A stretch of DNA of 64,000 nucleotides from assembly GCF_034356035.1 (NCBI RefSeq), contig NZ_CP136423.1, forward strand, positions 62,001 through 126,000, read 5' to 3'. The position numbers were made by a program, and so were the translations under genes. The first letter of the stretch is position 1, and each line of letters starts with the position of its first letter. The notes under the pieces were generated by a model. It worked only from the letters and a program-made list of their open reading frames with translations, did no database searches and had not been told where the DNA came from. Shown here one piece after another: positions 3,985 through 25,629 of this stretch. Source of the stretch: Blautia hydrogenotrophica DSM 10507. Lineage in GTDB: Bacteria > Bacillota > Clostridia > Lachnospirales > Lachnospiraceae.

Positions 3985-4002
3985 TTCTGAAAAAAGAATA
4001 AG

Positions 4003-4032
4003 ACAGCCGGGAGCGAGAAAGTTCCCGGCTGT
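4003..4032. terminator. Hairpin at the end of lysS
   Basis: A 10-bp GC-rich stem (ACAGCCGGGA at 4003-4012 with TCCCGGCTGT at 4023-4032). The T-rich tract lies on the minus-strand side, so it may mainly stop leftward transcripts from the precursor genes. It could also protect the lysS 3' end. Confidence 0.6.
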
Positions 4033-4038
4033 GATGAA

Positions 4039-4081
4039 AAAACCTTGAGATGCCTTTGAAAATCAGGCAAATCAAGGTTTT
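4039..4081. terminator. Bidirectional terminator between lysS and the RiPP precursors
   Basis: A stem pairs AAAACCTTGA (4039-4048) with TCAAGGTTTT (4072-4081), with an inner TGCCT/AGGCA pairing. T-runs flank it on both strands, so it can end both lysS and the leftward precursor operon. Confidence 0.75.
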
Positions 4082-4088
4082 TATTAGT

Positions 4089-4397
4089 TTACCATCTTCT
4101 ATTCGTGACAGTATTTACAAATCCGCCAACGGATGCGGTGGCGCCGCAGACGCCAAGTATGGCCATAACGGTTGCGGAGATTGCGAAACCTCCGGCAACA
4201 TTTTCCAATTCATCCTCCTGCAGTTCTTCAGATGCTTTTGCAGCAAGCATTTTTTGCAGGCAAAGAATATCATCGATGGATAAATCCAGATTTTTTTCTT
4301 TTAAAGCAGTTTTTACTTCTTCAGCAGTTTCACATTCCAAAAGTGAATTTACAAAAACTTCGTCAGAAAAAATATCTTTGATTAACGCTTCGTTCAT
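4089..4397 (-). CDS. Nif11-type RiPP precursor peptide 2
   Basis: A 102-residue precursor. I chose ATG 4397 (MNEALIKDIF) because it follows AGGAAGGTGG; a GTG three codons upstream is also possible. The leader (about residues 1-70) is Nif11-like, acidic and helical, and nearly parallel to that of the adjacent precursor. It ends in ENVAGG, a double-glycine site for a C39 peptidase. The core is hydrophobic, with one Cys, small residues and a basic end, NTVTNRRW. No lanthionine-type Ser/Cys pattern is evident. The two adjacent Arg residues near the C-terminus are candidate substrates for the locus arginase-like enzyme. The gene starts just after the stop of precursor 1, so the two are co-transcribed. 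Confidence 0.88.
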   Translation of the reverse strand: MNEALIKDIFSDEVFVNSLLECETAEEVKTALKEKNLDLSIDDILCLQKMLAAKASEELQEDELENVAGGFAISATVMAILGVCGATASVGGFVNTVTNRRW

Positions 4398-4399
4398 GA

Positions 4400-4711
4400 T
4401 TACCACCTTCCTCTTGTAAAGGTATGTACAAAGGTACCACCACTGGCTGTCGCACCGATAACACCGGCGATGGCAGAAACGATTCCGGCTGTAATCGCGA
4501 AACCTCCGGCAACATTTTCCATCTCATCTTCGGATAGTTCTCCGTTTTCCTGTGAGGTAAGTGTTTTCTGAATTTTTAAGATGTCGTCGATGGATAAATC
4601 CAGGCCTTTTTCTTTTAAGGCAGCCTGAACCTCTTCTGCGGTCTCCATTTCGGATAAAGATTTAAGAAAGGCTTCATCGGAAAAAATTTCTTTGATTAAT
4701 GCTTCGTTCAT
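4400..4711 (-). CDS. Nif11-type RiPP precursor peptide 1
   Basis: A 103-residue precursor preceded by AAGGAG. The leader begins MNEALIKEIFSDEAF and ends ELSEDEMENVAGG, the Nif11 leader with a double-glycine cleavage site. The core (about 33 residues) is rich in Ala, Gly, Ile and Val and ends HTFTRGRW. Precursors 1 and 2 share the leader closely and keep the pattern Thr, x, Arg, x or Arg, Trp at the end. It is transcribed divergently from the radical SAM gene, from the intergenic region 4712-4868. Both the leader type and the GG motif match the C39 exporter encoded 9 kb away. Confidence 0.9.
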   Translation of the reverse strand: MNEALIKEIFSDEAFLKSLSEMETAEEVQAALKEKGLDLSIDDILKIQKTLTSQENGELSEDEMENVAGGFAITAGIVSAIAGVIGATASGGTFVHTFTRGRW

Positions 4712-4784
4712 AATTATTCTCCTTATAATACTAAAGATGTTTTTATATAAGTTACGTACTCTAATACACGAAAATACAAAAAAC

Positions 4785-4809
4785 GTTACAAAATTTGAGA
4801 AAATGTAAC
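4785..4809. promoter_or_regulatory. Palindrome in the divergent promoter region
   Basis: GTTACA (4785-4790) and TGTAAC (4804-4809) form an interrupted palindrome in the AT-rich region between the leftward precursors and the rightward maturase gene. Flanking A- and T-runs extend the symmetry. It may be an operator shared by both directions, or a weak terminator. Confidence 0.4.
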
Positions 4810-4868
4810 ATTTTTTTTGGTGCGGTGTATTAATTAATGAAACCTGTATGAATTAAAGGAGAAAATGC

Positions 4869-6746
4869 GTGGCAAAGATAAAAGAATTTATAGAATATTT
4901 GAGCGCGGAAGAGTATACGGGACTGTTTCGTGAAGCATGTGAAAAAGGATGGGAGAATATCAAAGACCAGTATGGAGATTTGGATGTAAGAGAAACCATA
5001 CAAGAAGTACATTTGGCACAGAAAGAGAGAACTTGTGATTACTCCATAAAAGTCGAAATGGAAAAAGATCCCCATATGAAAGAATACTGGCTGGAACTGG
5101 ACGATACGGCTTGTGGAAAGCTGCCTATTGAACCTTGTTGGTTTGTAGACGCTCAAAAGGCTGTGCCCGGAGAAAAAAATGACTGGATCTATGAGCGGGT
5201 GTTTCGAAAGAAATTGACAGAAGAAGAGATTCAGAGTATTCGACCAATGTTAGATATCTGCATTGGCCTTTTAAAAGGAAAGAATGAAAGTTTGTTTCAA
5301 CTAGGGATTATGGAGGGAAGAGGGGAAAAATCCGTTCGTCTGTTTACCAGTGAATTGAGTAAGAATGATTTTCTAGAATATCTCAGAGAATTGAAATGGG
5401 AAGGAAATATTGAAGAATTAGAAAAATGGCTCACAAAACTGGAACCTTACGCAGAGAGAAAACAGTTTATTTTGGATTTCGACGTGTTTTCGAGAGGGAT
5501 TTCCGAAAAGATAGGGATTAATTTTGGAACTCGAAATAAAAAAGAAAGTACGGTCACAGAATTTCTTGATTTTTTGGTGAAAAACAAGCTCTGTCTGGAA
5601 TCAAAAGCAGAAGATGTCAAGCGATGGATTCAAAGGTATCCTTCACACACCCCGTTTATAGAAAATGATATCTCACATTTTAAGCTTCCCTTTGCGGACG
5701 GAAGAGTCACAGATGCGAAGGCCTATTTGCGGCAGGGGACGATTCCCTATGTGGAGCCGCTGGTCTATGAGACTCCGTGTCTGATGAATCTGGAACTGAC
5801 GACGAAATGTCCACTCAGATGTCCTCAGTGTTATTGCACTCTGGAAGGAGGAAAAGACCTGCCCCTGGAGTTGGCAGAACATTGGATAAGAGAAGCTGAA
5901 AAAGCGAAGGTGCAGACCATTAATTTAAGCGGCGGTGAGACCATGTGTTACCCGCATATTCATGAAGTAGTACGAAGCGTTGCAGAGAAGGGAATGGAAC
6001 CTAATATTGCGGTGTCGGGATATCGTTTTACGAAATCGGAGTTGGAGCAGTTTATTCAGGATGGAATCGGGGAAATCTGTGTTTCCTTAAATGCTCCGTC
6101 CAGAGAGAAAAACAGTCTGACAAGGGATGGGTTTGATCTTGCGGTTCGGGCATTGGAAGTGCTGAAAGAGGGCAGATTTCCCAGGACGTGTATCAACTGG
6201 GTGATGCACAACAGCAATGCGGATACTTTTTCGGAGATGCTGAAGCTAGCGGAGGATTATCGAGTGAGCGCGATCGCGGTCATGGTATTTAAACCGGACG
6301 CGGCGAATCAAAGGAAAAGTCTGCCCACTGTGGAACAGATGAAGACGGTGTCATCCGTGATAAAAAGATATAAAGGCCCTGTGAAAATTGAGATAGAGAG
6401 CTGCTTTTCCCAGATGCGAGCCCTCGTGGGAAAGACTTTTTTCTTCAACAAAAACGTGGGAGTCACGCGGGGCTGTGGAGCAGGAAGAGATGCCGTTTCG
6501 ATTACCGTGGATGGGGAAATTACTCCCTGCAGACATATTGAAATTGAGGAAAATACAAAAGACTTAATGGAGTACTGGAAAACTTCGTCAACGGTGCAAA
6601 AGCTGAGAACTGTGGAAGAAAGAATGGAAGAACCCTGTTCCGCCTGTAGTCTTCGCAGAAACTGCCTTCCGTGTATGGCAGTAAATCTAAAGATGAATAA
6701 AGCTTTATATATGGGTGAAAATACCTGTGAATTATGGAGGGATTGA
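4869..6746 (+). CDS. Radical SAM/SPASM RiPP maturase (Nif11-class)
   Basis: A 625-residue protein. GTG 4869 follows AAAGGAG. The N-terminal ~300 residues are helical and probably bind the precursor leader; I see no certain RRE fold. The radical SAM core starts with CX3CX2C in KCPLRCPQC (Cys314, 318, 321) and continues with SGGE near residue 355. A SPASM-type C-terminus has many Cys (RGCGAGRD, TPCRH, EEPCSACSLRRNCLPC) for auxiliary Fe-S clusters. Enzymes of this type install epimerisations, thioethers or C-C crosslinks in peptides; which one is not readable here. Its position beside two Nif11 precursors makes them the likely substrates. The IPP isomerase gene starts 1 base after the stop codon. 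Confidence 0.88.
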   Translation: MAKIKEFIEYLSAEEYTGLFREACEKGWENIKDQYGDLDVRETIQEVHLAQKERTCDYSIKVEMEKDPHMKEYWLELDDTACGKLPIEPCWFVDAQKAVPGEKNDWIYERVFRKKLTEEEIQSIRPMLDICIGLLKGKNESLFQLGIMEGRGEKSVRLFTSELSKNDFLEYLRELKWEGNIEELEKWLTKLEPYAERKQFILDFDVFSRGISEKIGINFGTRNKKESTVTEFLDFLVKNKLCLESKAEDVKRWIQRYPSHTPFIENDISHFKLPFADGRVTDAKAYLRQGTIPYVEPLVYETPCLMNLELTTKCPLRCPQCYCTLEGGKDLPLELAEHWIREAEKAKVQTINLSGGETMCYPHIHEVVRSVAEKGMEPNIAVSGYRFTKSELEQFIQDGIGEICVSLNAPSREKNSLTRDGFDLAVRALEVLKEGRFPRTCINWVMHNSNADTFSEMLKLAEDYRVSAIAVMVFKPDAANQRKSLPTVEQMKTVSSVIKRYKGPVKIEIESCFSQMRALVGKTFFFNKNVGVTRGCGAGRDAVSITVDGEITPCRHIEIEENTKDLMEYWKTSSTVQKLRTVEERMEEPCSACSLRRNCLPCMAVNLKMNKALYMGENTCELWRD

Positions 6747-6747
6747 T

Positions 6748-7275
6748 ATGGAAGACAGAGTGATATTAGTAGACATTTTTGATAATCAAATCGGTTCCGG
6801 GGAGAAAATGAGAGTGCACAGAGAAGGAAGGTTGCATCGCGCTTTTTCGGTGTTTTTGTATGATGGCAGGAAAATGCTGATTCAGCAAAGAAATCCGGAG
6901 AAATATCATTCCGGAGGGCTTTGGGCAAATGCCTGCTGTTCCCACCCAAGAGACCGGGAGACGCTGGAAGAAGCCGTGGACAGAAGAATGTCGGAAGAAC
7001 TGGGAATTCAGCCTGAGGTTCGGGAAATTGACAGCTTCGTTTACCGTGCAGTGTATGGCGATGGATTGTCAGAATATGAGTATGACCATGTATTTTTGGG
7101 AAAATACCGAGGAGAAGTACAGGCAAATCCAGATGAAATCAGCGAAGTAAGGTGGGTGGAATTGGATGAGCTGTCCAGAGATCTTCAGATGCATCCTGAA
7201 AAATATTGCGCCTGGTTTTTAATCGCAGCGCCGAAGGTTATCAAAAAAATTCAAGAAGAATGGGAAGATAAGTAG
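6748..7275 (+). CDS. idi: Isopentenyl-diphosphate delta-isomerase, type I (Nudix)
   Basis: Interconverts IPP and DMAPP. ATG 6748 follows GGAGGG. The 175 residues match type I IDI. The active-site Cys lies in ANACCSHPR (residues 60-68), a Nudix-like EEAVDRRMSEELG segment follows at about residues 74-86, and the catalytic acidic pair lies in SEYEYDHVFLG near residue 110. The gene sits 1 base after the maturase stop and 8 bases before the UPF0489 gene, so it belongs to the operon. No prenyltransferase is visible nearby, so its role in the RiPP locus is unclear. It could be a passenger or a re-purposed Nudix enzyme. Confidence 0.85.
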   Translation: MEDRVILVDIFDNQIGSGEKMRVHREGRLHRAFSVFLYDGRKMLIQQRNPEKYHSGGLWANACCSHPRDRETLEEAVDRRMSEELGIQPEVREIDSFVYRAVYGDGLSEYEYDHVFLGKYRGEVQANPDEISEVRWVELDELSRDLQMHPEKYCAWFLIAAPKVIKKIQEEWEDK

Positions 7276-7283
7276 GAAAATTT

Positions 7284-8183
7284 ATGAGTAAAATACCTGT
7301 ATATATCATGGAAGAGCATCATGAAGCTTTTTATTACTGGAATTATTTTATAGAGTGCGGACTGATACCACCGAAGCACAATTACTTGCTGCATATAGAT
7401 CATCATGATGATATGGAAGCGGGCGGATATGACTGGGATTTTCGGATTCCCTGGGAGTCTCTCGAACAGATCAGGACGTTTACCTATGAAAAACTGGGGA
7501 TTGCAGATTTTATTACGCCTGCCTTATATCAGGGGATTTTTGATACCGTTCATATAATGAAAAATCTGCTTCCCAAACCGTGCACAGAGATGGAATTTTT
7601 TGTACAGCGTGTGGGAAAAGGCCATCTCAGGCAGGGAAAGTATATTCCATTTGTTCACAGTGGATATAAAAGAGAGAAAAATCCAGATTACAGTTTTTAT
7701 ACGCTCAGAGAAAACGGTCTAAATGATTGGACGGAACGAGAAAGAAGTGTGGTTTTGGATCTGGATTTAGATTATTTTTGTTGGGATGATTCCCTGAGCA
7801 CGGCGGGTGTGAAACAGATGGAGATTACAAGAGAAGCTTATGAGGAGTATTGGGAAAATCTCTATCATCCGTTTCGGATTCTTCCCAAAAGGCTGATGCA
7901 GGCGAAAGAAAAGGATGGAAGATATTATCTGGAATATCGGGAGTTTGTGAAACCGGATGCGAAGCCGGATAAAGAGAGGATAAAAAACAGAATTAACCAT
8001 TTGCTGGACTGGCTGGAAACGGAAAAGATCAAGATAGCAGTGGTTGACATATGCAGGTCCAGGTATTCAGGTTATCTGAATAATGAAATTTTTCCTTGGG
8101 TCGAGGAGGAATTTTTGAAAAAGTTGGGTGAAAGAACAGATTATGTAAGGAGAGAAATTGGGAGAAATGAAGATAACAAATAG
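7284..8183 (+). CDS. UPF0489 family protein, probable peptide arginase
   Basis: A 299-residue protein of the UPF0489 family, which includes the RiPP enzyme OspR that turns peptide arginine into ornithine. Visible metal-ligand motifs are EEHHEAFYYW (residues 10-19), HIDHHDDME (residues 37-45) and a second acidic motif LDLDLDYFCWDD near residues 157-168. These resemble the Mn-binding HxDxH and DxD elements of ureohydrolases. The precursor cores carry Arg near their C-termini, which gives a plausible substrate. The gene starts 8 bases after idi, and its end overlaps the STAS gene. The family assignment is good; the reaction is inferred from family and context. Confidence 0.82.
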   Translation: MSKIPVYIMEEHHEAFYYWNYFIECGLIPPKHNYLLHIDHHDDMEAGGYDWDFRIPWESLEQIRTFTYEKLGIADFITPALYQGIFDTVHIMKNLLPKPCTEMEFFVQRVGKGHLRQGKYIPFVHSGYKREKNPDYSFYTLRENGLNDWTERERSVVLDLDLDYFCWDDSLSTAGVKQMEITREAYEEYWENLYHPFRILPKRLMQAKEKDGRYYLEYREFVKPDAKPDKERIKNRINHLLDWLETEKIKIAVVDICRSRYSGYLNNEIFPWVEEEFLKKLGERTDYVRREIGRNEDNK

Positions 8184-8466
8184 AAAAAATGATTTGGGAG
8201 TGGTTCTTCAGGTGGAAGGAAGAATCGACACTTATACGGCAGAGACATTTGAGCAGGCGCTCTTAGAGCTTTTGGAAAAGGAGTCAGTGGTGACAGTCGA
8301 TTTTGAGGATGTGGAATATGTGTCCAGTGCAGGCCTGCGCGCGCTGCTGAATGGACAGAAAAAAGCAAACAGTCAGGGAAAAGAGATGATCTGTGTCAAT
8401 ATCAATGAGACGGTGGAAGAAGTTCTGGAGATGACAGGCTTTATTGATATTTTAACGATTGAATAA
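8167..8466 (+). CDS. STAS-domain anti-sigma factor antagonist
   Basis: A 99-residue single-domain protein of the SpoIIAA/RsbV type. The phosphorylatable serine lies in EYVSSAGLRAL (Ser53/Ser54). In this family the unphosphorylated form binds the anti-sigma kinase and frees the sigma factor. ATG 8167 overlaps the UPF0489 3' end; a TTG at 8158 with a better-spaced AAGGAG is an alternative start. The next gene encodes the matching kinase, and the PP2C phosphatase and sigma factor lie downstream. Confidence 0.88.
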   Translation: MKITNRKNDLGVVLQVEGRIDTYTAETFEQALLELLEKESVVTVDFEDVEYVSSAGLRALLNGQKKANSQGKEMICVNINETVEEVLEMTGFIDILTIE

Positions 8467-8481
8467 AGTGTGGGACAAAGG

Positions 8482-8898
8482 ATGAGAGAATGGACAATTC
8501 CTGCCACGAAAGAGGCGGTGGCAGCTGTAATGCATAGCCTTGAAAGAGAAATGGAAGCAAATGAGTGTTCAGAAAAAAAGAGAAGACAGCTGAATATAGC
8601 GTTGGAAGAGCTGATGGTCAATATTGTAAATTATGCCTATGGGGAAGAGCACGGAATAATCAGGATTTCCTATGAGTTCTGGAAGACAGAAGGAGGCGTC
8701 TGTCTGAAACTGATCTGTGCAGATCATGGAAAGAGCTATAATCCGCTGAAGAAAAAAGAGCCGGATGTTTCCCTGCCGGCAGAAAAAAGAAAGGCGGGAG
8801 GACTGGGGATTTTTATGATGAAAAAACTGGTAGATTCCATAGAGTATGAAAGGGTAGGAGGGGAGAACCAGATTACAATCATAAAACAAATGAATTGA
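8482..8898 (+). CDS. Anti-sigma factor, RsbW/SpoIIAB-like serine kinase
   Basis: A 138-residue GHKL ATPase (142 if GTG 8470 is used). The N-box is ALEELMVNIVNYAYG, the G1-like box CADHGKSYNP and the G2 box KAGGLGIFMMKKL. Members of this family phosphorylate the STAS partner and sequester a sigma factor. With the STAS gene 15 bases upstream and a PP2C phosphatase downstream, it completes a partner-switching module. An inverted repeat (8912-8955) follows and probably marks the end of this operon. Confidence 0.85.
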   Translation: MREWTIPATKEAVAAVMHSLEREMEANECSEKKRRQLNIALEELMVNIVNYAYGEEHGIIRISYEFWKTEGGVCLKLICADHGKSYNPLKKKEPDVSLPAEKRKAGGLGIFMMKKLVDSIEYERVGGENQITIIKQMN

Positions 8899-8911
8899 TA
8901 AAGGATACGCG

Positions 8912-8955
8912 CAGCAGTTCAGGTATACGCCATTTAGCGGCTGCCTGAATTGCTG
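8912..8955. other. Inverted repeat after the RsbW-like gene
   Basis: CAGCAGTTCAGG (8912-8923) pairs with CCTGAATTGCTG (8944-8955). There is no T-run, so it is either a weak terminator, an RNA-stabilising hairpin or a regulator site. Confidence 0.45.
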
Positions 8956-8985
8956 TGGTCATGTGCTGTCAGTCTGATTTCACGC

Positions 8986-9014
8986 TTGTAAGGAAAAATT
9001 AGGTATGCTATAAT
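8986..9014 (+). promoter_or_regulatory. Distal promoter of the leader/exporter operon
   Basis: TTGTAA (8986-8991) and TATAAT (9009-9014) with a 17-base spacer. A transcript from here (start about 9021) would carry the leader ORF at 9065 and the whole tetranucleotide repeat. Confidence 0.6.
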
Positions 9015-9064
9015 AATAATGAAATTTCAGGGCAGAAAACTGTTATAAAAAAGGATTGACAAAA

Positions 9065-9187
<123 letters not shown>

Positions 9188-9206
9188 GGCATAGAAACAC
9201 TTATAA

Positions 9207-9246
9207 GGGCACTGCGATGTCAATAGGGCATTGCAGTGTCCTTTTT
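9207..9246 (+). terminator. Leader terminator 2 (attenuator)
   Basis: A continuous 15-bp stem (9207-9221 with 9227-9241, three G-U pairs), a 5-base loop, then five T. It lies about 50 bases before the small precursor and would limit read-through unless bypassed. Confidence 0.8.
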
Positions 9247-9298
9247 GTGTGCGCGTCTGACGGCGCAGATAGATTTTTAAGGGAAGGGTGGTGAAAAA

Positions 9299-9436
9299 AT
9301 GAAGAAAGAATGGAAGACAGACGCTGAGAAAAAGCTTCGGAAAGAAAAGAAGACAGATAGAGAAATCACTCCGGAAGAGATGGAAAAAGTATCTGGTGGA
9401 GCGAGTCGCTATCAGCATCGCAGGCCTGTACGCTAA
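9299..9436 (+). CDS. Small GG-leader precursor peptide with Arg-rich core
   Basis: A 45-residue peptide starting at ATG 9299 after GGAAGGG. The leader is strongly basic and then acidic, ending TPEEMEKVSGG, a double-glycine site parallel to ENVAGG of the Nif11 precursors. The predicted core is only 11 residues, ASRYQHRRPVR, with four Arg. It is too short to carry a full Nif11 domain. Its position directly ahead of the phosphatase, sigma and C39 exporter genes suggests export by that system. It could be a third RiPP substrate or a secreted signal sensed by the operon. The gene would be missed by usual length cut-offs. Confidence 0.7.
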   Translation: MKKEWKTDAEKKLRKEKKTDREITPEEMEKVSGGASRYQHRRPVR

Positions 9437-9441
9437 AAAAG

Positions 9442-9459
9442 GAGCCGCTTCGGCGGCTC
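9442..9459 (+). other. UUCG-loop hairpin after the small precursor
   Basis: GAGCCGC and GCGGCTC flank a TTCG tetraloop. There is no T-run. It probably stabilises the upstream precursor mRNA or partially reduces read-through into the phosphatase gene. Confidence 0.7.
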
Positions 9460-9483
9460 AAATAAAGGAGACAGAGAAAAAAT

Positions 9484-11013
9484 ATGGATGGGCATGTAAT
9501 CCGGGAATGTCTTTATATGGGAATCATGTATCTGCAGATTATAATATTTATGGCGTTTATGATTTCTAAGACGTTGGAACTTGAGAAGACGCAGAGAACT
9601 GCCGTTGTGTACTGGGGAGTAGCGGGGCTGTCCGCTTTTTTGTTCGGAATGGGAATTCAGTATGCGGCGCAGCAGATGATTGCATTTTTAGATCAGAAAG
9701 CATTTCAGAGTGAAGGCGGAGCCATCGTGCAGATGTACTACAGCGGCGTAACTCTTGTCCATGTGGTTCAAAATATGATGCCGGCCCTGATCGCCACTGC
9801 TTTTGTTTTGGTTATTTATCGGGGAAAAAGAAGTACAAAGGTATTCGTATCGCTGTTGTTTATGTTGGTGGTGGCCGTAACCTTTCAGTTTTTTTCAGAA
9901 ATTACTTATATTTTCTTTTCCGATGGCGATAACGGTTATTTGCGGAATCAGCCGGTGCCTATTGTGAGAAGTCTGATAGATTTTGGATGGCTTTTTTGTA
10001 TTATCTGTATCTATAGAAAATTTCTAGAAACTTCATTGAAAAATATTTTGGAGACCGCCAGAGAACAGATTGTACATATTATTACGATTTCCTGTCTCGC
10101 CTACATAGCATTTGAGGTTGTGAAAGGGACTTTGGATACTTATGGAATTACACTAATGGCTGTAGACCCTGGAAATTTTTTGATTGCAGTTACAATCATT
10201 ACTGCGCTGATTCTTATTTACATTTTAATATATTGGTCCATCTTCAAGGTGGTGACCGTATCAGCCAGTTCGGCAAAAGTAAAAGCAGAGCTGGATGTGG
10301 CGAGCAAAATTCAGTTATCAGCTCTGCCCAATAAATTTCCTGCTTTTCCGGACAGAAAAGAAATAGAAGTTTATGCGGAAATGTTTCCGGCAAAAGAAGT
10401 CGGAGGAGATTTCTATGATTTTTTCTTCATTGATGAGGAACATCTGGCAGTTCTGATAGCAGATGTCTCAGGAAAAGGGGTTCCGGCCGCACTGTTTATG
10501 ATGAGTGGACGGGCGGTCATACGCAATCAGGCGTTTTTAAAGATGAAGCCTGGAGAGATATTGAAGAATGCTAACAATCAGTTAGAAGAGAACAATCATG
10601 AAGGTATGTTTATCACGGCTTTTCTCGGTATTCTCAATGTGAATACGGGAGAATTTGAATACAGCAATGCAGGGCATAATGTGCCTTATCTTTGCAAAAA
10701 GAGCGGAGAAGTCATTCCAATTCCGGTAAAATCCGGATTTGTTCTGGCGGGAATGCGGAATATACGATATAAAACGGAGAAAATAATTCTGGAAAAACGA
10801 GAGAAGTTAATTTTATATACGGATGGGATAACAGAAGCGGAAAATCCTCAAAAAGATATGTATGGAGCAGAACGCCTTATGGAAGCTCTCGGAGACTGTA
10901 CGGAGAAGACGGTAGATGAAACAGTCAGGAAGATTGTTGTATCGGTTGAAAATTTTGCGCAGGATTCGGAGCAGGCGGACGATATTACTGTTTTGGCGGT
11001 GGAAAGACTGTAA
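9484..11013 (+). CDS. Membrane-bound PP2C (SpoIIE/RsbU-type) serine phosphatase
   Basis: A 509-residue protein. The N-terminal ~255 residues hold about six to seven hydrophobic membrane segments, and the C-terminal ~240 form a SpoIIE-type PP2C domain. Metal-binding motifs are KEVGGDFYDFF near residue 305, IADVSGKGVPAALFMM with Asp327, SNAGHN, LYTDGITEAEN and QADDITVL at the end. It would dephosphorylate the STAS protein in response to a membrane signal. ATG 9484 follows AAAGGAG. The next gene is a sigma factor, so the input and output of the switch are adjacent. Confidence 0.9.
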   Translation: MDGHVIRECLYMGIMYLQIIIFMAFMISKTLELEKTQRTAVVYWGVAGLSAFLFGMGIQYAAQQMIAFLDQKAFQSEGGAIVQMYYSGVTLVHVVQNMMPALIATAFVLVIYRGKRSTKVFVSLLFMLVVAVTFQFFSEITYIFFSDGDNGYLRNQPVPIVRSLIDFGWLFCIICIYRKFLETSLKNILETAREQIVHIITISCLAYIAFEVVKGTLDTYGITLMAVDPGNFLIAVTIITALILIYILIYWSIFKVVTVSASSAKVKAELDVASKIQLSALPNKFPAFPDRKEIEVYAEMFPAKEVGGDFYDFFFIDEEHLAVLIADVSGKGVPAALFMMSGRAVIRNQAFLKMKPGEILKNANNQLEENNHEGMFITAFLGILNVNTGEFEYSNAGHNVPYLCKKSGEVIPIPVKSGFVLAGMRNIRYKTEKIILEKREKLILYTDGITEAENPQKDMYGAERLMEALGDCTEKTVDETVRKIVVSVENFAQDSEQADDITVLAVERL

Positions 11014-11026
11014 AAGGGTAGATAAG

Positions 11027-11542
11027 ATGGAAGATATCCAGTTTGAAAATCTATATAAACAGTATAAAAATAGAATTATTGCTTATATCAGCAAACGGAT
11101 TTCATCGCAGGAAGATGCGGAAGAATTGACGGGAGATATTTTTTTAAATTTATACAAGAACAGAGGGTCATATGAAAAGGAAAAAAGCAGTATGGAAACA
11201 TGGATTTTTGCGATTACAAATAACAGATTAAAAAATTATTATAGAGATCGAAAAGATGAAATTTTGACAAATTCTGTAGAAATATATGAGTCTTCTTGTG
11301 AGATTAGCGTGGAGAAAGAGGTTTTTCAAAGACAGATGAAGGAAGATATCTCCTGGGCGTTGCAAAGACTGTCAGAGAGAGAAAGAAAAATTCTTGTAAA
11401 AAAGTACTATCAGGGAAAGGGGGCAAGAGAAATTGCGGAAGAAATGCAGATCACGGAGGGAAATGTCCGGGTAATTGCCAAGCGTTCCCTGGATAAATTA
11501 AAGAGAATTATAAACGAAAGATTAGGAGGCAACAATGTCTGA
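11027..11542 (+). CDS. RNA polymerase sigma factor (sigma-70/ECF-like)
   Basis: A 171-residue protein. Region 2 is visible in LYKQYKNRIIAYISKR and SSMETWIFAITNNRLKNYYRDR, and region 4 in QRLSERERKILVKKYYQG and AREIAEEMQITEGNVRV, the helix-turn-helix. ATG 11027 lies 13 bases after the phosphatase stop; its 3' end overlaps the HlyD gene by 8 bases. It is the likely target of the RsbW-like anti-sigma factor and may direct transcription of the RiPP locus. Confidence 0.87.
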   Translation: MEDIQFENLYKQYKNRIIAYISKRISSQEDAEELTGDIFLNLYKNRGSYEKEKSSMETWIFAITNNRLKNYYRDRKDEILTNSVEIYESSCEISVEKEVFQRQMKEDISWALQRLSERERKILVKKYYQGKGAREIAEEMQITEGNVRVIAKRSLDKLKRIINERLGGNNV

Positions 11543-13469
11543 TTTATTTAGAAAGTCAGCGATTGAGAAACTGTCATCACCGGAACAACTGGATAAGGCG
11601 ATTGTTATTACCCCGCCTTCCTTCTGGATTGCGTTAGCAGGAGGAGTCTTGATTGTTGTTGTAGCTCTGCTGTGGGGGATTTTTGGAAAATTGCCAGTAA
11701 AAGTGGAGACGAATGGGATTTATCTGAGCGATGATGGAACGAGGGGAGTTTATTCGGAAGTTTCGGGTGTCGTGACAAAGATGAATGTAGAAGATGGAGA
11801 TTATGTAAAGAAAGATCAGGTGGTCGCGTATATTGGCGGAGGAGAACTGGCCCAGGAGCAGAAGAATCTTTCCAAAAGGATTTCTTCCGTTCAAGACGTA
11901 ACCTTGAAGAGTAAAGGGGATAAAGCTACCTCGGACAACAAATCCCTGCTGGATATAAAAAGTGAATTTACGCCCCTTCAGGCCACCTACGAGCAAAGCA
12001 AAGAGACTTTTGAAAAGAAGAAAAAAGAATTAGAGAGTCAGAAAAATAAAGTTTCAGAGAAAAAAGCGGAGGCAGACAAATTAAAAGAACAGTACTATGA
12101 CTCGATCGGAGGAGCCGGCGCTCAGGAACAGTTGGAATACACCGAGGCGCAGGCAGACTTAAGCAGCGCGAAACAATATTATGAAAGCGCCTATTCCCAG
12201 TATGAGCAGGCAAGGACGCAAAAAGACGCTGCCGATCAGAGTTACAGCTTAACGGAGCAGAACTATTATATGGTTCAGACCAGTACACAGGCGATTGAGA
12301 CAAGGCTGAATCAGAAAAAGGCCGAGCTTCAGGGAAAGCAGGAAGAACTGAACAGATTGGTGCAGGCGGGCGCAGAACAAAGCGAGATCGACCGGATGCA
12401 GACAGAAATCAATCAGATGGAGACTGAACTAGAAGGAATTCAGGAACAGGCGGATTTCGCTCAGAAGGAATTGGCTGACGCGGCGGAGTCCTATGGACAG
12501 GCTCAGATGGAGTTAAGCTCGGCCGAGAGTGTCTATACTGCGGCGGAAGCGGCATACGAGAGATATGGAATGGAATATGAAAATGCGGAAGCGGCCTTCG
12601 AACAGGCAAAAGCACAGTATTCAGACATTTTAGCTTCTCAGGAGTTTGCTACGAGAGACCAGACGGCGGCAAACAACGAGTATTCTCAGGCTATGTCAGA
12701 GTATTCTACGGAAAAATCCATGTATGAGTCGATGAAACAGGAGGTAGAAAATCTGGAGATCCAGACAAAACAGGCTAAAAAGGAAATGGATATGAAAAGC
12801 GCGAGTCTTCAGAATTCTTTCACAGCCACCAAAGAGTCGGTTTTGGACAGCCTGGAAACAGAACTGAAAAAATGTACAGAGAACCTTAAAAAATACGAAA
12901 TTGTTTCCTCGACAGAAGGAGAAGTGCAGGAACTAGTCGCGGATATGGGAAGTATTGTCGGTGCCGGTTCTGAGATTATCAAAATCAAGCAGAAGGAGGA
13001 CAGTCAGGAAGTCATCTGCTATATTCCTGTCTCAGAAGGCAAAAAGGTGAAAGCAGGAATGGAAGTTATGGTTTATCCTACGACTGTGAATACACAGGAA
13101 TATGGCCATATGAGAGGAACAGTCAGGGCAGTCTCAGATTATGTGATTTCTTCTAATGAGATGAAGAAAAAATTAGGAGATGAGACTTTAGTTCAGGCAT
13201 TTTTGAATACGGGTCCGGTTCTTGAGGTGATTTGTACTTTGCAGGAAGATGACAGCACAGTCAGCGGATACGCATGGTCCAGCAAGAAAGGTGCTGATAT
13301 TGAAGTAACAGAGGGAACGATGCTGACGGCCAATATTGTAACAGAGGAAAAAGCTCCGATTACGATGCTTTTGCCTTATTTGAAAGAAAAGCTTACGATT
13401 AAGGCAGGTTCAGATGCTGACGGAAGTAGCACAGGAAATTTGGCGGCAGAGTCAGGCAAAGAGGTGTGA
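11535..13469 (+). CDS. NHLM-type secretion adaptor (HlyD-like membrane fusion protein)
   Basis: A 644-residue protein with one N-terminal membrane segment (ALAGGVLIVVVALLWGIFG, about residues 34-52). A biotinyl-lipoyl-like half (GVVTKMNVEDGDYVKKDQ) near residues 78-95 is followed by a very long coiled coil rich in Gln, Glu and Ala (about residues 115-450). The second lipoyl half and a beta-barrel region follow. It bridges the ABC exporter to the exterior. The overlap with the sigma gene and the 1-base gap to the next gene show one operon. Confidence 0.88.
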   Translation: MSDLFRKSAIEKLSSPEQLDKAIVITPPSFWIALAGGVLIVVVALLWGIFGKLPVKVETNGIYLSDDGTRGVYSEVSGVVTKMNVEDGDYVKKDQVVAYIGGGELAQEQKNLSKRISSVQDVTLKSKGDKATSDNKSLLDIKSEFTPLQATYEQSKETFEKKKKELESQKNKVSEKKAEADKLKEQYYDSIGGAGAQEQLEYTEAQADLSSAKQYYESAYSQYEQARTQKDAADQSYSLTEQNYYMVQTSTQAIETRLNQKKAELQGKQEELNRLVQAGAEQSEIDRMQTEINQMETELEGIQEQADFAQKELADAAESYGQAQMELSSAESVYTAAEAAYERYGMEYENAEAAFEQAKAQYSDILASQEFATRDQTAANNEYSQAMSEYSTEKSMYESMKQEVENLEIQTKQAKKEMDMKSASLQNSFTATKESVLDSLETELKKCTENLKKYEIVSSTEGEVQELVADMGSIVGAGSEIIKIKQKEDSQEVICYIPVSEGKKVKAGMEVMVYPTTVNTQEYGHMRGTVRAVSDYVISSNEMKKKLGDETLVQAFLNTGPVLEVICTLQEDDSTVSGYAWSSKKGADIEVTEGTMLTANIVTEEKAPITMLLPYLKEKLTIKAGSDADGSSTGNLAAESGKEV

Positions 13470-13470
13470 C

Positions 13471-15618
13471 ATGGGGAAACTTTATGCAAAAACGCCGACA
13501 ATTTATCAGATGGAGGCGACAGAATGCGGAGCAGCGTCCCTAGCGATGATTTTAGCTTATTATGGAAAATATTTACCGTTGGAGCAGATGCGTATAGAAA
13601 CTGGCGTGTCCAGAGACGGATGCAATGCAAAGAACATCATGCGCGCGGGAAAAAAATTTGGCCTGGAGGTGAAAGGCTACCGCAAGTCCCTGGACAGTTT
13701 ATTGGAAGTAGAACCTCCATGTATTATACATTGGAATTTTAATCACTTCGTCGTTTTTGAAGGCCATAGAGGGAAATACTATTATATCAACGATCCCGGA
13801 ATGGGAAGGAGAAAGCTAAGCTACGAGGAACTGGACGCGGCATTCACCGGAATTGTTTTGACTTTTGAGAAAACGGAAAATTTTCAAAAAACGAAAAAGG
13901 AGCGGACATTTTTTTCTTTTGTCAAAGAGAGGCTGAAAGGGCAGTATTTGTCTATTCTCGCGCTGGTAAGCATTGGGCTGCTGCTGGTATTTCCGGGGTT
14001 GATCATTCCGGTATTTTCTCAGATTTTCATAGATGATATTCTGCTGGGCGGAAATGATAAGTGGACAACTGTATTTTTGTGTATTATGGGATTTACCATG
14101 CTGTTTCAGGCGGCGCTTATGTTTTACAGGGGAATTTTGCTTCAGCGCCTTCAAAACAAAATGTCTATGATCTCGGCCCATAAATTTCTGTCACATATGT
14201 TTCGGCTCCCCATGGGATTTTTTGACCAGAGATATGCCGGAGATCTGGCAGAGCGTGTGGAAAACAACAATAACGTAAGCGTGTTTTTGGCCGGAGATCT
14301 GGCGGAGACGGTACTAAATATCTTTGTGGCGGTGTTTTATCTGGTGCTCTTGCTGTTGTACAGCCCCGTTTTGACTTTGATTGGCATTGTCAGTATTGGA
14401 ATTAATGTGGTACTGATGAAAGTAAGTTCCAATGCCATTGCGAATTCCACGATGAAAATGCAGCAGGATCAGGGGAAGATGATCGGAGCTGTATTTGCGG
14501 GTCTGAATATCACCAGCACGCTGAAAGCGTCGGGAGCGGAGAATGAGTATGTCAGCCGTGTTTTGGGGTATTACGCGAAGACAATTTTGATGGAGCAAAA
14601 GCTGGGAAAGCTGCAGCAGATTTTAAACGCGGTTCCGGAGGTGTTTACTGAGATCGCGAATGTTCTGGTTCTGATGTTTGGGGGACTGTTGGTTATCAAA
14701 GGAGAGATGACGGCAGGTATGTTGGTGGCTTACACGAGCCTTCTTGCTTCTTTTATCGAGCCTGTAAATAAGCTGGTGGGATTTATTCAGAGAATCCAGA
14801 CTTTGAAAGCGGATATGAGTCGTGTGGAAGACATTATGAGATATGAACAGGATGGGAAATTTGAGGAGGCGGAAGAAAAAATTCCTATGACGGCGAAACT
14901 GACGGGTGAGGTGGAGTTGAGAGATGTTTCATTTGGATATAATATTTTGGAACGTCCGCTGGTGGAAAATTTTAATTTTCATTTGAAAAGTGGGAGCTCC
15001 ATCGCGTTTGTGGGGAGTTCCGGGTGCGGAAAATCTACTGTGTCAAAGATTGTAAGCGGGTTGTATCTTCCCTGGAGCGGAAATGTTTTTATGGACGGGA
15101 TGTCTCTGAAACAGATTCCAAAAGAAATTTTAAGCTGCAGCGTATCGACAGTCAGTCAGGATATCACTTTATTTTCCGGAACGATCCGGGATAATTTAAC
15201 CATGTGGAGCAGCAGTGTCCTGGAAGAGGATATGATCCGGGCGGCAAAGGATGCCTGTATTCATGATATTATCACGAAAAAACCAGGGGCGTATGAGTAC
15301 GAATTGACGGAAGGCGGTTCTAATTTGTCAGGAGGACAAAGGCAGCGCCTGGAAATTGCCAGAGCTTTGGTGACGAATCCGACGATTTTGATTATGGATG
15401 AAGCGACAAGCGCCCTGGATCCTCTGGTTGAGAAAGAGATCGTTGACAATATTAAGAGAAGGGGATGTACCTGTGTGATTGTAGCTCACAGATTGTCAGC
15501 GATTCGCGATTGCGATGAAATTATTGTCATGGACAGAGGCAAGATTGTGCAGAGAGGGACACATGAGGAACTGAAAACTCAGGAAGGCCATTACCAAAGA
15601 TTAATTCAGAATATTTAG
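13471..15618 (+). CDS. NHLM-type ABC exporter with C39 peptidase domain
   Basis: A 715-residue fusion of a C39 peptidase, a membrane domain and an ATPase. The peptidase has Cys19 in ATECGAAS, His92 in FNHFVVFEG and Asp108 in INDPG. Membrane helices span about residues 150-430. The ATPase has GSSGCGKST (Walker A), LSGGQRQRLEIARAL (signature) and ILIMDEATSALDP (Walker B). This enzyme cleaves leaders after Gly-Gly and exports the core, which fits the VAGG and VSGG precursors in the locus. ATG 13471 follows GAGGTG. Confidence 0.93.
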   Translation: MGKLYAKTPTIYQMEATECGAASLAMILAYYGKYLPLEQMRIETGVSRDGCNAKNIMRAGKKFGLEVKGYRKSLDSLLEVEPPCIIHWNFNHFVVFEGHRGKYYYINDPGMGRRKLSYEELDAAFTGIVLTFEKTENFQKTKKERTFFSFVKERLKGQYLSILALVSIGLLLVFPGLIIPVFSQIFIDDILLGGNDKWTTVFLCIMGFTMLFQAALMFYRGILLQRLQNKMSMISAHKFLSHMFRLPMGFFDQRYAGDLAERVENNNNVSVFLAGDLAETVLNIFVAVFYLVLLLLYSPVLTLIGIVSIGINVVLMKVSSNAIANSTMKMQQDQGKMIGAVFAGLNITSTLKASGAENEYVSRVLGYYAKTILMEQKLGKLQQILNAVPEVFTEIANVLVLMFGGLLVIKGEMTAGMLVAYTSLLASFIEPVNKLVGFIQRIQTLKADMSRVEDIMRYEQDGKFEEAEEKIPMTAKLTGEVELRDVSFGYNILERPLVENFNFHLKSGSSIAFVGSSGCGKSTVSKIVSGLYLPWSGNVFMDGMSLKQIPKEILSCSVSTVSQDITLFSGTIRDNLTMWSSSVLEEDMIRAAKDACIHDIITKKPGAYEYELTEGGSNLSGGQRQRLEIARALVTNPTILIMDEATSALDPLVEKEIVDNIKRRGCTCVIVAHRLSAIRDCDEIIVMDRGKIVQRGTHEELKTQEGHYQRLIQNI

Positions 15619-15629
15619 GAGGAGACTGT

Positions 15630-18179
15630 ATGGAATCAGTTTATCTAAAAGGCGGAAAAATGTTCCTGACTGATCAGACGGAAATGGCCTTTCGTGTTGA
15701 CGAGGGACATGTTCTGATTTACATAGTGCCATATGCAGAGGGAAAACCAGGAAGAAGATTTCTGCTGTATGAGGCGGAAGAAGGAGATAAAATACCGGCT
15801 TTTGCCTGGGAACATGAGCAACTTGGAATCTGGCGGTTCGGCCTGGTGGCTTTGGAAGAGGCCAGAATTCATCCTTATAAGCCGGAGAATATGGACGAGG
15901 AGAAAATGGAATTTGCGAAGCTGATACAGCTTCGCCTTTTCTCAGCGGATGAATTTGAGGAAGAAATAGCAGAACAGTACAATATCAATATTATCAAAGA
16001 AGAAGGATATATCTACGCAGCTTCACTGGAACAGGAAAGTACATACGAGAAGGGCCTGCAGATTATTTTGGATATGTTCCGGAAAAAAAGACATAGACAG
16101 AATACACCGAAAAGCGGAAACCGGATGTATGACGCCGCGGCCTTTGTCTGTGATTTCATGGGAGTATATATTGCTCCTTTTGAGAAGGTCAAAGAAAGCT
16201 GCCGAAAGAAATTCAGCCTTTGGGATATCGGGAGATTATCCCATTTTACCAGCAGAGAAATTGTCTTAGAGGAAAATTGGTATAAGAAGGATTCAGGGCC
16301 GATGATTGCGTATACGGCCAAGGGAAGGCTGCCTGTGGCCTGTGTTCCGGCAGGACCGGGCGCCTATACCGCTCATGACGTAACTACGGGAAAAAATTAC
16401 CGTGTAGATCAGAAATTTGCGGACAGCTTAGAGCCCAAAGCAGATATGATTTACCGGCCGTATCCCAACAAAAAAATCGGATGGAAGGAATTGCTGACTT
16501 TCGGGCTGAAAAGTGCCTATGTGAGAGATTTTGTGAATATCGGCATTATGGCGCTTATCGGAACGCTGATAGGGCTGCTGTTACCTATGATAAATGAACA
16601 GTTATATGACAAGTTCATACCGATGGCAGACAGCAGCGGGCTGGTGCAGATCTGCATGGTGATTTTGGCGTGTACGGTAGGAAATCTCACATTTACAATT
16701 GTGAAAAATTTAGCAACCTTTCGAAGCATGAATGCAATGGAATATGCGGTACAAAGCGCTACCTACGATCGTCTGTTCAATCTTCCGGAAAGCTTTTTCC
16801 GGGAATACGAATCCGCAGATTTGGCTTCGAGAGCCATGGGAATCACGACGATCTTTCAAGTTATGGCAGATGTCATGGTGAAAACTCTTCTAAGCGGTGT
16901 TTTTTCTTTGCTATATTTATGGAGAATGTTTCAGTATTCTAAAAATCTGGCGAAAGTGTCGATTGTCATGATTTTGGCAGCTATGCTCCTGATTGGTTTT
17001 ATCGGATACCGGCAGACCCGGTACGAAGGTAAGAAAATGGAAATAGACGGAAAGTTGTCTTCTATTATGTATCAGTTTTTATCGGGAATCGCCAAAATCA
17101 GAATTGCAGGGGTGGAAAACCGGGCTCTATATGAATACCTGAAGCCTTATGCGGAATCCAGAAAAATTTACATGAAAAAAGAGAAAATGGGCATTGTAGT
17201 GGATAGTCTGATAGCGGCGCTGCAGGTATTTTTTTCTATTGTACTGTATTATATTATGATTCGCAAAAATGTGGGGCTGAGTGTCGGAAGTTTTATGGCG
17301 TTTATGACAGCGTTTGGTTCTTTCTCCGGGGCTATGCTGCAGGTAGTTTCCTCTTTTTTGGATGTAAATGCAGTGGTACCTGCGTATCAGCGGTGCAGAC
17401 CTATTCTGTCTGCTCTACCGGAGTATGAGGAGAACACAGTACTGCCAGGGATTCTTACTGGAGATGTGGAGGTCTCCAACGTAACATTTGCGTATGATAA
17501 AGAGTCAGGCCCTGTGCTGAAAGACGTTTCTTTTCATATTAAACCAGGAGAGTATATTGGCGTCGTGGGAGCGTCCGGCTGCGGAAAGTCTACTCTGATG
17601 AAGATTCTTCTGGGGTTTGAGCGTCCGCAAAAAGGAAAAGTTTTTTATGACGGAAAAGATATTGACAGTATGGATAAGAGGGAATTGAGAAAAAAATTCG
17701 GCGTGGTGCTTCAGGACGGTAATTTGATCTCGGGAAGCATCTATGAGAATATTACAATTACAGCTCCCCATACGACAATGAAGAGAGTACAGCAGGTTAT
17801 TCAGGAAGTAGGACTGGAAAAAGATATTAAAGATATGCCGATGGGACTTCATACGGTGCTATCTGAGAACAGCGGGACAATCTCGGGCGGACAGCAACAG
17901 AGAATTCTGATTGCAAGGGCGATTGTAGGAAAACCGAAGATTTTATTTTTTGACGAAGCGACATCAGCGCTGGACAATGTGACACAATCCATGGTCTGTG
18001 AGAGCCTTGCGGGCTTGAAAGCGACGCGCATGGTCATTGCGCATCGTCTCAGTACAGTTATGGATTGTGACAGGATTTTTGTTATGGATCAAGGAGTGAT
18101 TGTAGAACAGGGAAATTATGAGGAACTCATGCAGAAGAAAGGGGTGTTTTATCAATTAGCAAGCCGTCAGATGGCCTGA
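15630..18179 (+). CDS. NHLM-type ABC transporter, ATP-binding/permease protein
   Basis: An 849-residue protein. The first ~290 residues contain no C39 catalytic triad that I can see and are typical of the second NHLM exporter subunit. A membrane domain follows (about residues 290-560), then an ATPase with GASGCGKSTL, ISGGQQQRILIARAI and ILFFDEATSALDN. It probably forms a heterodimer with the C39 exporter. Its start lies 11 bases after that gene, with AGGAGG. A strong hairpin follows at 18202. Confidence 0.9.
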   Translation: MESVYLKGGKMFLTDQTEMAFRVDEGHVLIYIVPYAEGKPGRRFLLYEAEEGDKIPAFAWEHEQLGIWRFGLVALEEARIHPYKPENMDEEKMEFAKLIQLRLFSADEFEEEIAEQYNINIIKEEGYIYAASLEQESTYEKGLQIILDMFRKKRHRQNTPKSGNRMYDAAAFVCDFMGVYIAPFEKVKESCRKKFSLWDIGRLSHFTSREIVLEENWYKKDSGPMIAYTAKGRLPVACVPAGPGAYTAHDVTTGKNYRVDQKFADSLEPKADMIYRPYPNKKIGWKELLTFGLKSAYVRDFVNIGIMALIGTLIGLLLPMINEQLYDKFIPMADSSGLVQICMVILACTVGNLTFTIVKNLATFRSMNAMEYAVQSATYDRLFNLPESFFREYESADLASRAMGITTIFQVMADVMVKTLLSGVFSLLYLWRMFQYSKNLAKVSIVMILAAMLLIGFIGYRQTRYEGKKMEIDGKLSSIMYQFLSGIAKIRIAGVENRALYEYLKPYAESRKIYMKKEKMGIVVDSLIAALQVFFSIVLYYIMIRKNVGLSVGSFMAFMTAFGSFSGAMLQVVSSFLDVNAVVPAYQRCRPILSALPEYEENTVLPGILTGDVEVSNVTFAYDKESGPVLKDVSFHIKPGEYIGVVGASGCGKSTLMKILLGFERPQKGKVFYDGKDIDSMDKRELRKKFGVVLQDGNLISGSIYENITITAPHTTMKRVQQVIQEVGLEKDIKDMPMGLHTVLSENSGTISGGQQQRILIARAIVGKPKILFFDEATSALDNVTQSMVCESLAGLKATRMVIAHRLSTVMDCDRIFVMDQGVIVEQGNYEELMQKKGVFYQLASRQMA

Positions 18180-25299: not shown

Positions 25300-25629
25300 T
25301 AAAGCAAGTGAACAAGTTGTAAAGATAGAAGAACAAAATTTGACAAGAACCGTGGATTCTTTTATCTTTATTAAATAACAACTCTGATTATCTCCAAAAA
25401 GCCCGGAAATACGGGCATTTCACGGGATATAAGAACTGAATTTACTACCGATTTACTACTTTCGGATTGAGCTTTGACACGCTTCTGCCTCCCGTGAAGC
25501 CCACCGCCCAAATAGTGACACATCGAAAATCGAATACGACACCGCAGACGGCGGCGTTCTCTTTTCCCCTTTGGGGAGATCAGGACGCCGCTTTTTTTGC
25601 GCCCAAAACCAGAAAGGAGGCGACCGCCT
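25300..25629. other. ICE left-end non-coding region
   Basis: No convincing gene. Contents: an AT-rich tract, a small GCCCG/CGGGC hairpin near 25400, tandem TTTACTAC repeats near 25440-25460, and a large hairpin (about 25549-25601) whose GCGGCGTT and GACGCCGC arms flank a TCCCC/GGGGA palindrome and end in a run of seven T. The latter looks like an attenuator ahead of the first ICE gene. Confidence 0.5.

Follow-up and report, generated by a model that had tools for sequence, protein, structure and literature searches.

A conserved Nif11-type peptide cluster of Blautia hydrogenotrophica with a fused prenyltransferase-fold and radical SAM protein, an isopentenyl-diphosphate isomerase and an (R)xRW precursor tail

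What is made by a peptide cluster in which a peptide arginase, a radical S-adenosylmethionine (SAM) enzyme and an isopentenyl-diphosphate (IPP) isomerase are encoded side by side? The question is raised by a block of 13 open frames in Blautia hydrogenotrophica DSM 10507, positions 4089–18179 of the window analyzed here (64,000 nucleotides, positions 62,001 to 126,000 of contig NZ_CP136423.1, assembly GCF_034356035.1), located between genes that resemble lysS and feoAB in sequence. A preliminary description had read the block as a complete locus for a ribosomally synthesized and post-translationally modified peptide (RiPP), with Nif11-leader precursors, a SPASM radical SAM maturase, a peptide arginase-like UPF0489 protein and full C39/NHLM export, and the five gene types that it claimed are all present there. 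Its pathway reading is well supported for the arginase with NHLM export, but it overlooked the isomerase, a signature in the precursor tail and the sigma factor genes; together with a prenyltransferase-fold domain fused to the maturase, these are what make the locus unusual. The locus is a real, conserved RiPP cluster, and the variant is apparently undescribed. Gene content, fold, isomerase and a promoter pair were computed directly, as were the tail signature and the way it covaries with the arginase; from these we infer the chemical steps, their order and the sigma-factor control. On balance, the cluster probably is controlled by an extracytoplasmic function (ECF) sigma factor and modifies the short C-terminal (R)xRW tail of small hydrophobic, bacteriocin-like peptides by arginine-to-ornithine conversion, prenylation and radical chemistry.

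Two tandem precursor genes run leftward from a divergent region at 4712–4868. Rightward from it run the genes for the radical SAM protein, the Nudix isomerase, the UPF0489 protein and the STAS and RsbW-like proteins, tightly spaced or overlapping, followed after a repeat-array gap by a small double-glycine peptide, a PP2C protein, an ECF sigma factor and three NHLM export genes. The features on which the argument turns are:

4089–4397, minus strand: precursor A1 (start codon chosen by us), Nif11-like leader, GG site, core ending TNRRW; TIGR03798 27.5 bits, cut-off 32.3
4400–4711, minus strand: precursor A2, Nif11-like leader, GG site, core ending TRGRW; TIGR03798 41.1 bits, over cut-off
4869–5768, plus strand: ABBA-type prenyltransferase-fold domain, N-terminal residues 1–300 of the fusion protein; by predicted fold
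5769–6746, plus strand: radical SAM/SPASM domain, residues 301–625 of the fusion protein; PF04055 and PF13186 over cut-off
6748–7275, plus strand: type I IPP isomerase (Nudix); TIGR02150 116.1 bits, cut-off 105.8
7284–8183, plus strand: UPF0489 peptide arginase; PF12640; solved structure 8brp at 8.4e-45; motifs EEHHEAF, DHHDD and LDLDLDY

The assignment of both peptides as Nif11-leader precursors stands: A1 lies below the TIGR03798 cut-off that A2 passes, yet is plainly homologous to A2. The Pfam Nif11 model, PF07862, had no match in the organism's own genome at E 0.001, where TIGR03798 did find the domain; it gives A2 16.4 bits against a cut-off of 23.8, which neither precursor reaches. The proteusin NHLP model TIGR03793 scores the two at 12.9 and 14.5 bits, below its cut-off of 50.9.

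Relatives were sought by profile scans of genome contigs, in which a single protein found nothing and an alignment found 33 loci. Co-occurrence was counted over 37 sources with the radical SAM part, comprising 36 loci (L numbers below; genomes have G numbers) and the window. Named loci belong to Lachnospiraceae, Selenomonadaceae, Family XIII, Syntrophomonadaceae, Treponema, other Spirochaetaceae and an Acidobacteria bin, although some of these names may be wrong because most loci are metagenome bins. Among the 37 sources, labels were assigned for NHLM-type ABC proteins in 27 (the L038 exporter match being weak), arginase in 15, DUF7005 in 13, STAS in 12, RsbW-like in 10, ECF in 10 and PP2C in 6. 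Mining for the gene set, as had been proposed, recovers parts of it together in related loci of other genera, beyond chance; an arginase with this SPASM enzyme is no isolated case, as both are labelled in 15 of the 37 sources, including the window. Sampling of 397 genomes of the family turned up the prenyltransferase domain in 4 (the organism's own included), and sampling of 391 of the class in 1, namely its own. DUF7005 (PF22541) occurs in related clusters, for example at L006 4089–4943, L011 18297–19325 and L014 8779–9654, with further copies at L024 12479–13321 and L029 17335–18267. An HExxH stretch conserved in eight aligned members suggests a metallo-enzyme, and from its sequence DUF7005 may be a further maturase or a leader peptidase; it was not detected in the organism's own genome, in a search in which control genomes gave no match either.

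Tryptophan is the very last residue in 73 of 91 precursors, from 29 of 31 sources (relatives and window), as counted with a leader-only model. That model was built on precursors already collected by a full-length one, and it brought in no new precursor. When the same leader model was applied to other genomes of the same family, only one of 28 distinct Nif11-type precursors ended in tryptophan. This control was drawn from the best 30 loci of the scan, and 13 of its 28 members score under 25 bits, including the single Trp-ended one (17.7 bits); L055, L058, L063, L066, L079 and L080, from four genomes with the prenyltransferase domain, were left out. L079, on another contig of G158, has two precursors not ending in tryptophan, whose inclusion makes the control 1/30. 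A protein search with A2 gave 96 Trp-ended sequences among 120 listed homologues (122 found), some of the 120 being almost identical to the query and a few having odd ends that look chimeric. Within the 96, arginine stands at –1 in 86, at –2 in 47 and at –3 in 38, and is rare elsewhere in the core. The distant loci L047 and L048 carry a prenyltransferase–radical SAM pair with cores that contain Cys, Trp and Tyr and do not end in tryptophan, possibly another branch of the chemistry.

The UPF0489 protein is, as had been suggested, peptide arginase-like: it scores 53.3 bits on PF12640 (cut-off 27), and its sole solved match is OspR. Regular expressions covering the six metal ligands matched EEH(N/H)EAF in 10 of 15 sources, and DXHXD and LDIDLDYF in all 15; the five that miss the first motif read DEH(H/N)(E/D)A and retain the ligand histidine. 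The gene covaries with the tail of the precursors. An arginine lies within five residues of the tryptophan in 15/15 sources with an arginase and in 1/7 without (p 9e-5; 22 sources), or, by precursor, in 38/38 and 4/19, counts in which neither precursors from a shared locus nor related loci are independent units. Of the 29 Trp-ended sources, L008, L009, L015, L016, L028, L030 and L033 were set aside, since they have no arginase and their contigs stop less than 5 kb from the radical SAM gene in one direction or both; the six other than L028 each have one or more precursors with arginine near the tryptophan. The one exception, L010, ends within the second exporter gene, and its sisters L011–L013 bear the arginase beyond that gene. 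UPF0489 itself occurs in 5/397 genomes of the family. Because no cluster gene is labelled in the stretches around it in G192, G112 and G284 (L044–L046, excluded from the 37-source counts), it is no marker of the cluster on its own; the arginase model built here did not pick up these three genes. Peptide arginases of the PF12640 family, paired with precursors of the NHLP, Nif11, SCIFF and other types, are in the literature together with their motifs and the –42 Da reaction (PMC12703449; PMC10028609). The pairing of an arginase with a Nif11 precursor is therefore not new, being already in print (PMC12703449).

The maturase is a SPASM enzyme, with PF04055 (63.3 bits) and PF13186 (24.9 bits) both over cut-off, but not the ordinary one that had been described, since a prenyltransferase-fold domain is fused to its N-terminus. 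The predicted model of residues 1–300 has an ABBA prenyltransferase fold (mean predicted local distance difference test score, pLDDT, 93.8). By sequence these residues gave no match to a described family: no Pfam prenyltransferase model matched in 16 members, no PDB sequence matched, and no NCBIfam model matched the domain in the two members scanned. A Glyco_hydro_39 match in 1 of the 16 members (E 0.0009) was taken as noise. Sequence searches being uninformative, fold searches alone gave the identity of the domain. R157, K214, K272, K284 and Y286 are conserved and lie on barrel strands, where they are candidate diphosphate-binding residues. In L033, L034 and L037 the domain occurs as a stand-alone protein of 439–455 residues, followed by the arginase in L034 and L037. 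Between it and the radical SAM gene these Syntrophomonas-type clusters encode a protein of 246–248 residues (L033 1688–2434, L034 8977–9717, L037 9086–9826), of which the L034 copy had no Pfam match. In the radical SAM/SPASM domain, C314, C318 and C321 (CX3CX2C) and C536, C554, C590, C593, C599, C602 and C620 are invariant over 32 aligned rows. Its nearest solved structure is PqqE (6c8v, 4e-12), and no named NCBIfam radical SAM sub-family was over cut-off among the best 25 of 52 families matched. All 120 listed relatives of the fusion protein (174 found among candidates capped at 8000, its own sequence included) carry both parts. Neither such a fusion nor a Nif11 class with C-terminal tryptophan was found described in titles and abstract openings of open-licence PMC literature; kin of the locus may figure in a 2020 list of Nif11-linked peptide arginase clusters.

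A predicted source of prenyl donor is encoded directly downstream. The Nudix protein passes the cut-offs of TIGR02150 and PRK03759, and in alignment with solved IDI structures it retains the active-site Cys, His and Glu (H..H, CCSHP and EYE). The isomerase is fused as a third domain in 16 of the 120 listed relatives of the fusion protein, and it is present in 9/25 sources with the prenyltransferase domain and in 0/12 without (Fisher 0.018; 37 sources, several on short contigs). In L023 and L024 the prenyltransferase domain is reduced to remnants and no isomerase is labelled, over 10 kb in L024 and on a contig that stops 655 bases after the gene in L023. The protein is the sole type I isomerase over cut-off in the whole genome, type II having been outside the search, and IspH of the methylerythritol phosphate (MEP) route is present. 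The MEP route yields dimethylallyl diphosphate (DMAPP) as well as IPP. A mere housekeeping role was set aside because of the fusions in 16 listed relatives, the absence of another type I enzyme over cut-off and the supply of DMAPP by the MEP route.

Several known systems come close. The arginase shares its three metal motifs with OspR of the landornamide pathway; the maturases named in the accessible account of that pathway are OspD, OspM and OspR, whereas here a fused ABBA–radical SAM protein and an IPP isomerase are found and the arginine lies in a C-terminal RxRW tail. An ABBA enzyme is reported to geranylate a tryptophan of a Nif11-leader lanthipeptide precursor (PMC12715784). That mpp pathway likewise combines a Nif11-type leader, an ABBA-fold enzyme (MppC) and a Trp-containing core, but there MppC partners the lanthionine synthetase MppM, while the domain studied here is fused to a radical SAM/SPASM domain and accompanied by an isomerase and an arginase. 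Foldseek places the domain in the fold of the cyanobactin enzymes PatF, PagF and KgpF at 7–9% identity; unlike them it is fused to a radical SAM domain and matches no Pfam prenyltransferase family, and its acceptors are likely linear, leader-bearing peptides. In mycofactocin biosynthesis the radical SAM/SPASM enzyme MftC decarboxylates the tyrosine, likewise aromatic, at the C-terminus of a RiPP precursor (PMC5682303). The residue here is tryptophan, the mycofact_rSAM model gives 66 bits of 265, and the likeness of the reactions is a guess. NHLM-exported Nif11 peptides share the exporter trio and leader type; here an ECF sigma factor with a STAS/RsbW/PP2C module is added to the cluster. A term search of a 2026 review of peptide prenylation found no use of the word radical (PMC13290415), and passages of a genome-mining review handle prenyltransferases and SPASM enzymes separately (PMC11002830).

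Regulation and export involve the remaining features:

4764–4790, minus strand: ECF-type promoter motif TGTAAC-N15-GTGTAT, precursor side
4804–4830, plus strand: ECF-type promoter motif TGTAAC-N15-GTGTAT, enzyme-gene side
8167–8466, plus strand: STAS anti-sigma antagonist; PF01740 70.2 bits
8470–8898, plus strand: RsbW-like HATPase anti-sigma kinase; PF13581 98.9 bits, RsbW models 45 bits (under cut-off)
9056–9243, plus strand: sigma-A-like promoter (11/12), (GACA)19.5 array at 9089–9166, 17-pair terminator at 9205–9243
9299–9436, plus strand: third small double-glycine peptide, 45 residues, Arg-rich tail without Trp
9484–11013, plus strand: protein with C-terminal SpoIIE-type PP2C phosphatase; PF07228 171.2 bits
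11027–11542, plus strand: ECF-type sigma factor (start codon chosen by us); TIGR02937 98.0 bits, cut-off 42.9
11535–13469, plus strand: NHLM HlyD-type secretion protein; TIGR03794 265.4 bits, over cut-off
13471–15618, plus strand: C39 peptidase/ABC exporter (NHLM ABC1); TIGR03796 1079.4 bits, over cut-off
15630–18179, plus strand: NHLM ABC2 exporter; TIGR03797 954.8 bits, over cut-off

With all three export models over cut-off, the full C39/NHLM exporter is confirmed. The promoter motif occurs once per strand in the divergent region, and its strict pattern nowhere else in the 3.6 Mb genome; a slightly looser pattern finds only the same two sites in the window against 0.07 expected. A widened pattern (TGTAAC, 13–17 bases, then [GT]TGTAT or [CG]GTGT), written after the relatives had been viewed, gave 16 sites across the loci and window (606 kb), where base-to-base resampled sequence gave 0.65. 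These lie in nine of 40 sources, the window and eight related loci; 14 precede precursor or enzyme genes by at most 400 bases, and the other two precede another small double-glycine frame beside an ECF gene (L023 1402–1674, L024 1693–1959). Chance would not easily give the double-sided layout seen in L008, L015, L026 and the window. Gene order suggests that the cluster's ECF factor would read the motif and that the STAS/RsbW/PP2C genes would govern the factor. Modules of this type are best known with sigma-B type factors. A scan of 3950–11600 for promoter- and terminator-like sites gave 17 and 11, against 15.3 and 5.9 in shuffles, so that a single site in this stretch counts for little, the 17-pair terminator excepted.

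A pathway can be proposed from these parts. The ECF factor, held or released by the STAS/RsbW/PP2C module, would open the promoters at 4764–4830, and the Nif11-type leaders would bring the precursors to the enzymes. The arginase, to judge from its family, metal ligands and covariation with the tail, would convert arginine beside the C-terminal tryptophan to ornithine. The isomerase would supply DMAPP, and the ABBA-fold domain, to judge from its fold and the gene linkage, may attach a prenyl group to the tail, most likely at the tryptophan indole. The fused radical SAM/SPASM domain might then act on the terminal tryptophan, conceivably by an MftC-like oxidative decarboxylation. Chemistry at the tryptophan is favored because this residue is the most widely kept, with or without the arginase and the prenyltransferase domain. 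The C39 exporter would finally cut behind GG and the NHLM complex export the product. Only tentatively do we propose a single assembly line, in which the prenyltransferase–radical SAM protein, with the isomerase as third domain in some relatives, provides its own DMAPP, prenylates the C-terminal tryptophan and then performs radical chemistry on the same residue, beside ornithine made by the arginase.

Several observations weigh against the proposed pathway. Because the model used to collect the first precursors covered the tail, the set may be biased toward tryptophan, and 18 of the 91 do not end in it, five of them from L047/L048. The window arginase scores 200.4 bits on the FlmR/OhkR model NF052474, below the cut-off of 350. 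Only five Foldseek matches of the ABBA domain reach E 0.001, with template modelling (TM) scores of about 0.5 and root-mean-square deviations of 6.5–7.7 Å. Sixteen of the 25 sources with the prenyltransferase domain showed no isomerase, though several of their contigs end early. The promoter pattern is post hoc, window and relatives having been seen first, and 31 of the 40 scanned sources have no match. Neither a cross-link partner nor a known sub-family pins down the radical reaction. Finally, loci that lack the prenyltransferase domain (L023, L024, L026, L028, L029 and L030) retain the tryptophan too, which is therefore no proof of prenylation.

That last observation speaks for a reading in which the ABBA domain is a real prenyltransferase whose target is the Orn or Arg side chain that the arginase makes available or another core residue, the tryptophan serving the radical SAM domain only; we consider this unlikely. 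A cross-link of the tail tryptophan to a nearby residue, of the streptide or WgkB type, instead of a change to the tryptophan alone, is possible though doubtful. Trp-linking SPASM enzymes are known, and the WgkB model does match, at 63 bits, far below its cut-off of 650; in arginase-free variants, though, residues –1 to –3 vary freely (HTW, GQW, LMW, VGW, IPW), so that no cross-link partner is conserved.

It is rather improbable that the ABBA domain has lost prenyl transfer and serves the radical SAM domain only by binding leader or core, much like a RiPP recognition element (RRE), with the isomerase as a passenger. Fusion would set such a binding domain beside the catalyst, and ten window proteins had no PqqD/RRE-type match against Pfam, a search in which RRE domains are easily missed; yet the charged barrel residues are kept, the isomerase is linked to the domain, and in L033, L034 and L037 the domain stands alone. 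That the enzymes have another purpose and the precursors are simply class II bacteriocins of the double-glycine kind is very improbable. The precursor cores are hydrophobic and glycine-rich, the Bacteriocin_IIc model matches weakly (21.6 and 18.4 bits, cut-off 27.1), and TIGR03949 (bact_IIb_cerein, lactobin A/cerein 7B; cut-off 21.5) places A2 just over and A1 just under its threshold (23.0 and 21.4 bits), the match being the GG site and hydrophobic core. Against this, the tail residues covary with the arginase gene, and one divergent promoter region is common to enzymes and precursors.

Other features of the region deserve mention. The third peptide (9299–9436) has a double-glycine leader of another type than the precursors; a relative at L023 618–791, 60% identical where the two match, occupies the same place before a PP2C gene. 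The third peptide may act as a signal that the PP2C protein reads, or may serve the arginase as a second substrate. Upstream of its gene a near-perfect sigma-A promoter is followed by (GACA)19.5, the sole run of at least five GACA units in the genome, and then by the 17-pair terminator; 9092–9260 folds far better than shuffles (z –5.85), and a small RNA or a switch of variable length could lie at 9056–9243. Next to the cluster, at 25597–55830 of the window, there is an apparent integrative conjugative element, with genes for a coupling protein, a relaxase, a serine recombinase, a TraG-like ATPase, a topoisomerase and an ArdA-containing polyvalent protein. Its G+C is mostly 0.50–0.59, against 0.40–0.45 in the cluster, and inside it lies an intact-looking tetracycline ribosomal-protection gene of the TetM/W/O/S family (30739–32658; NF033148 1284.7 bits, cut-off 1100).

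If the proposed pathway is right, it adds to RiPP chemistry a fused prenyltransferase–radical SAM enzyme, sometimes with its own IPP isomerase, and the C-terminal (R)xRW tail becomes a simple handle for finding the class. It would also provide a natural route to ornithine, prenyl and radical modifications on a four-residue tail, of use in peptide engineering, and a testable link from an ECF sigma factor and a partner-switching module to peptide production. Should the single assembly line prove true, its products would form a new class of RiPPs, both prenylated and ornithine-bearing, in anaerobic Firmicutes, with some members in other phyla.

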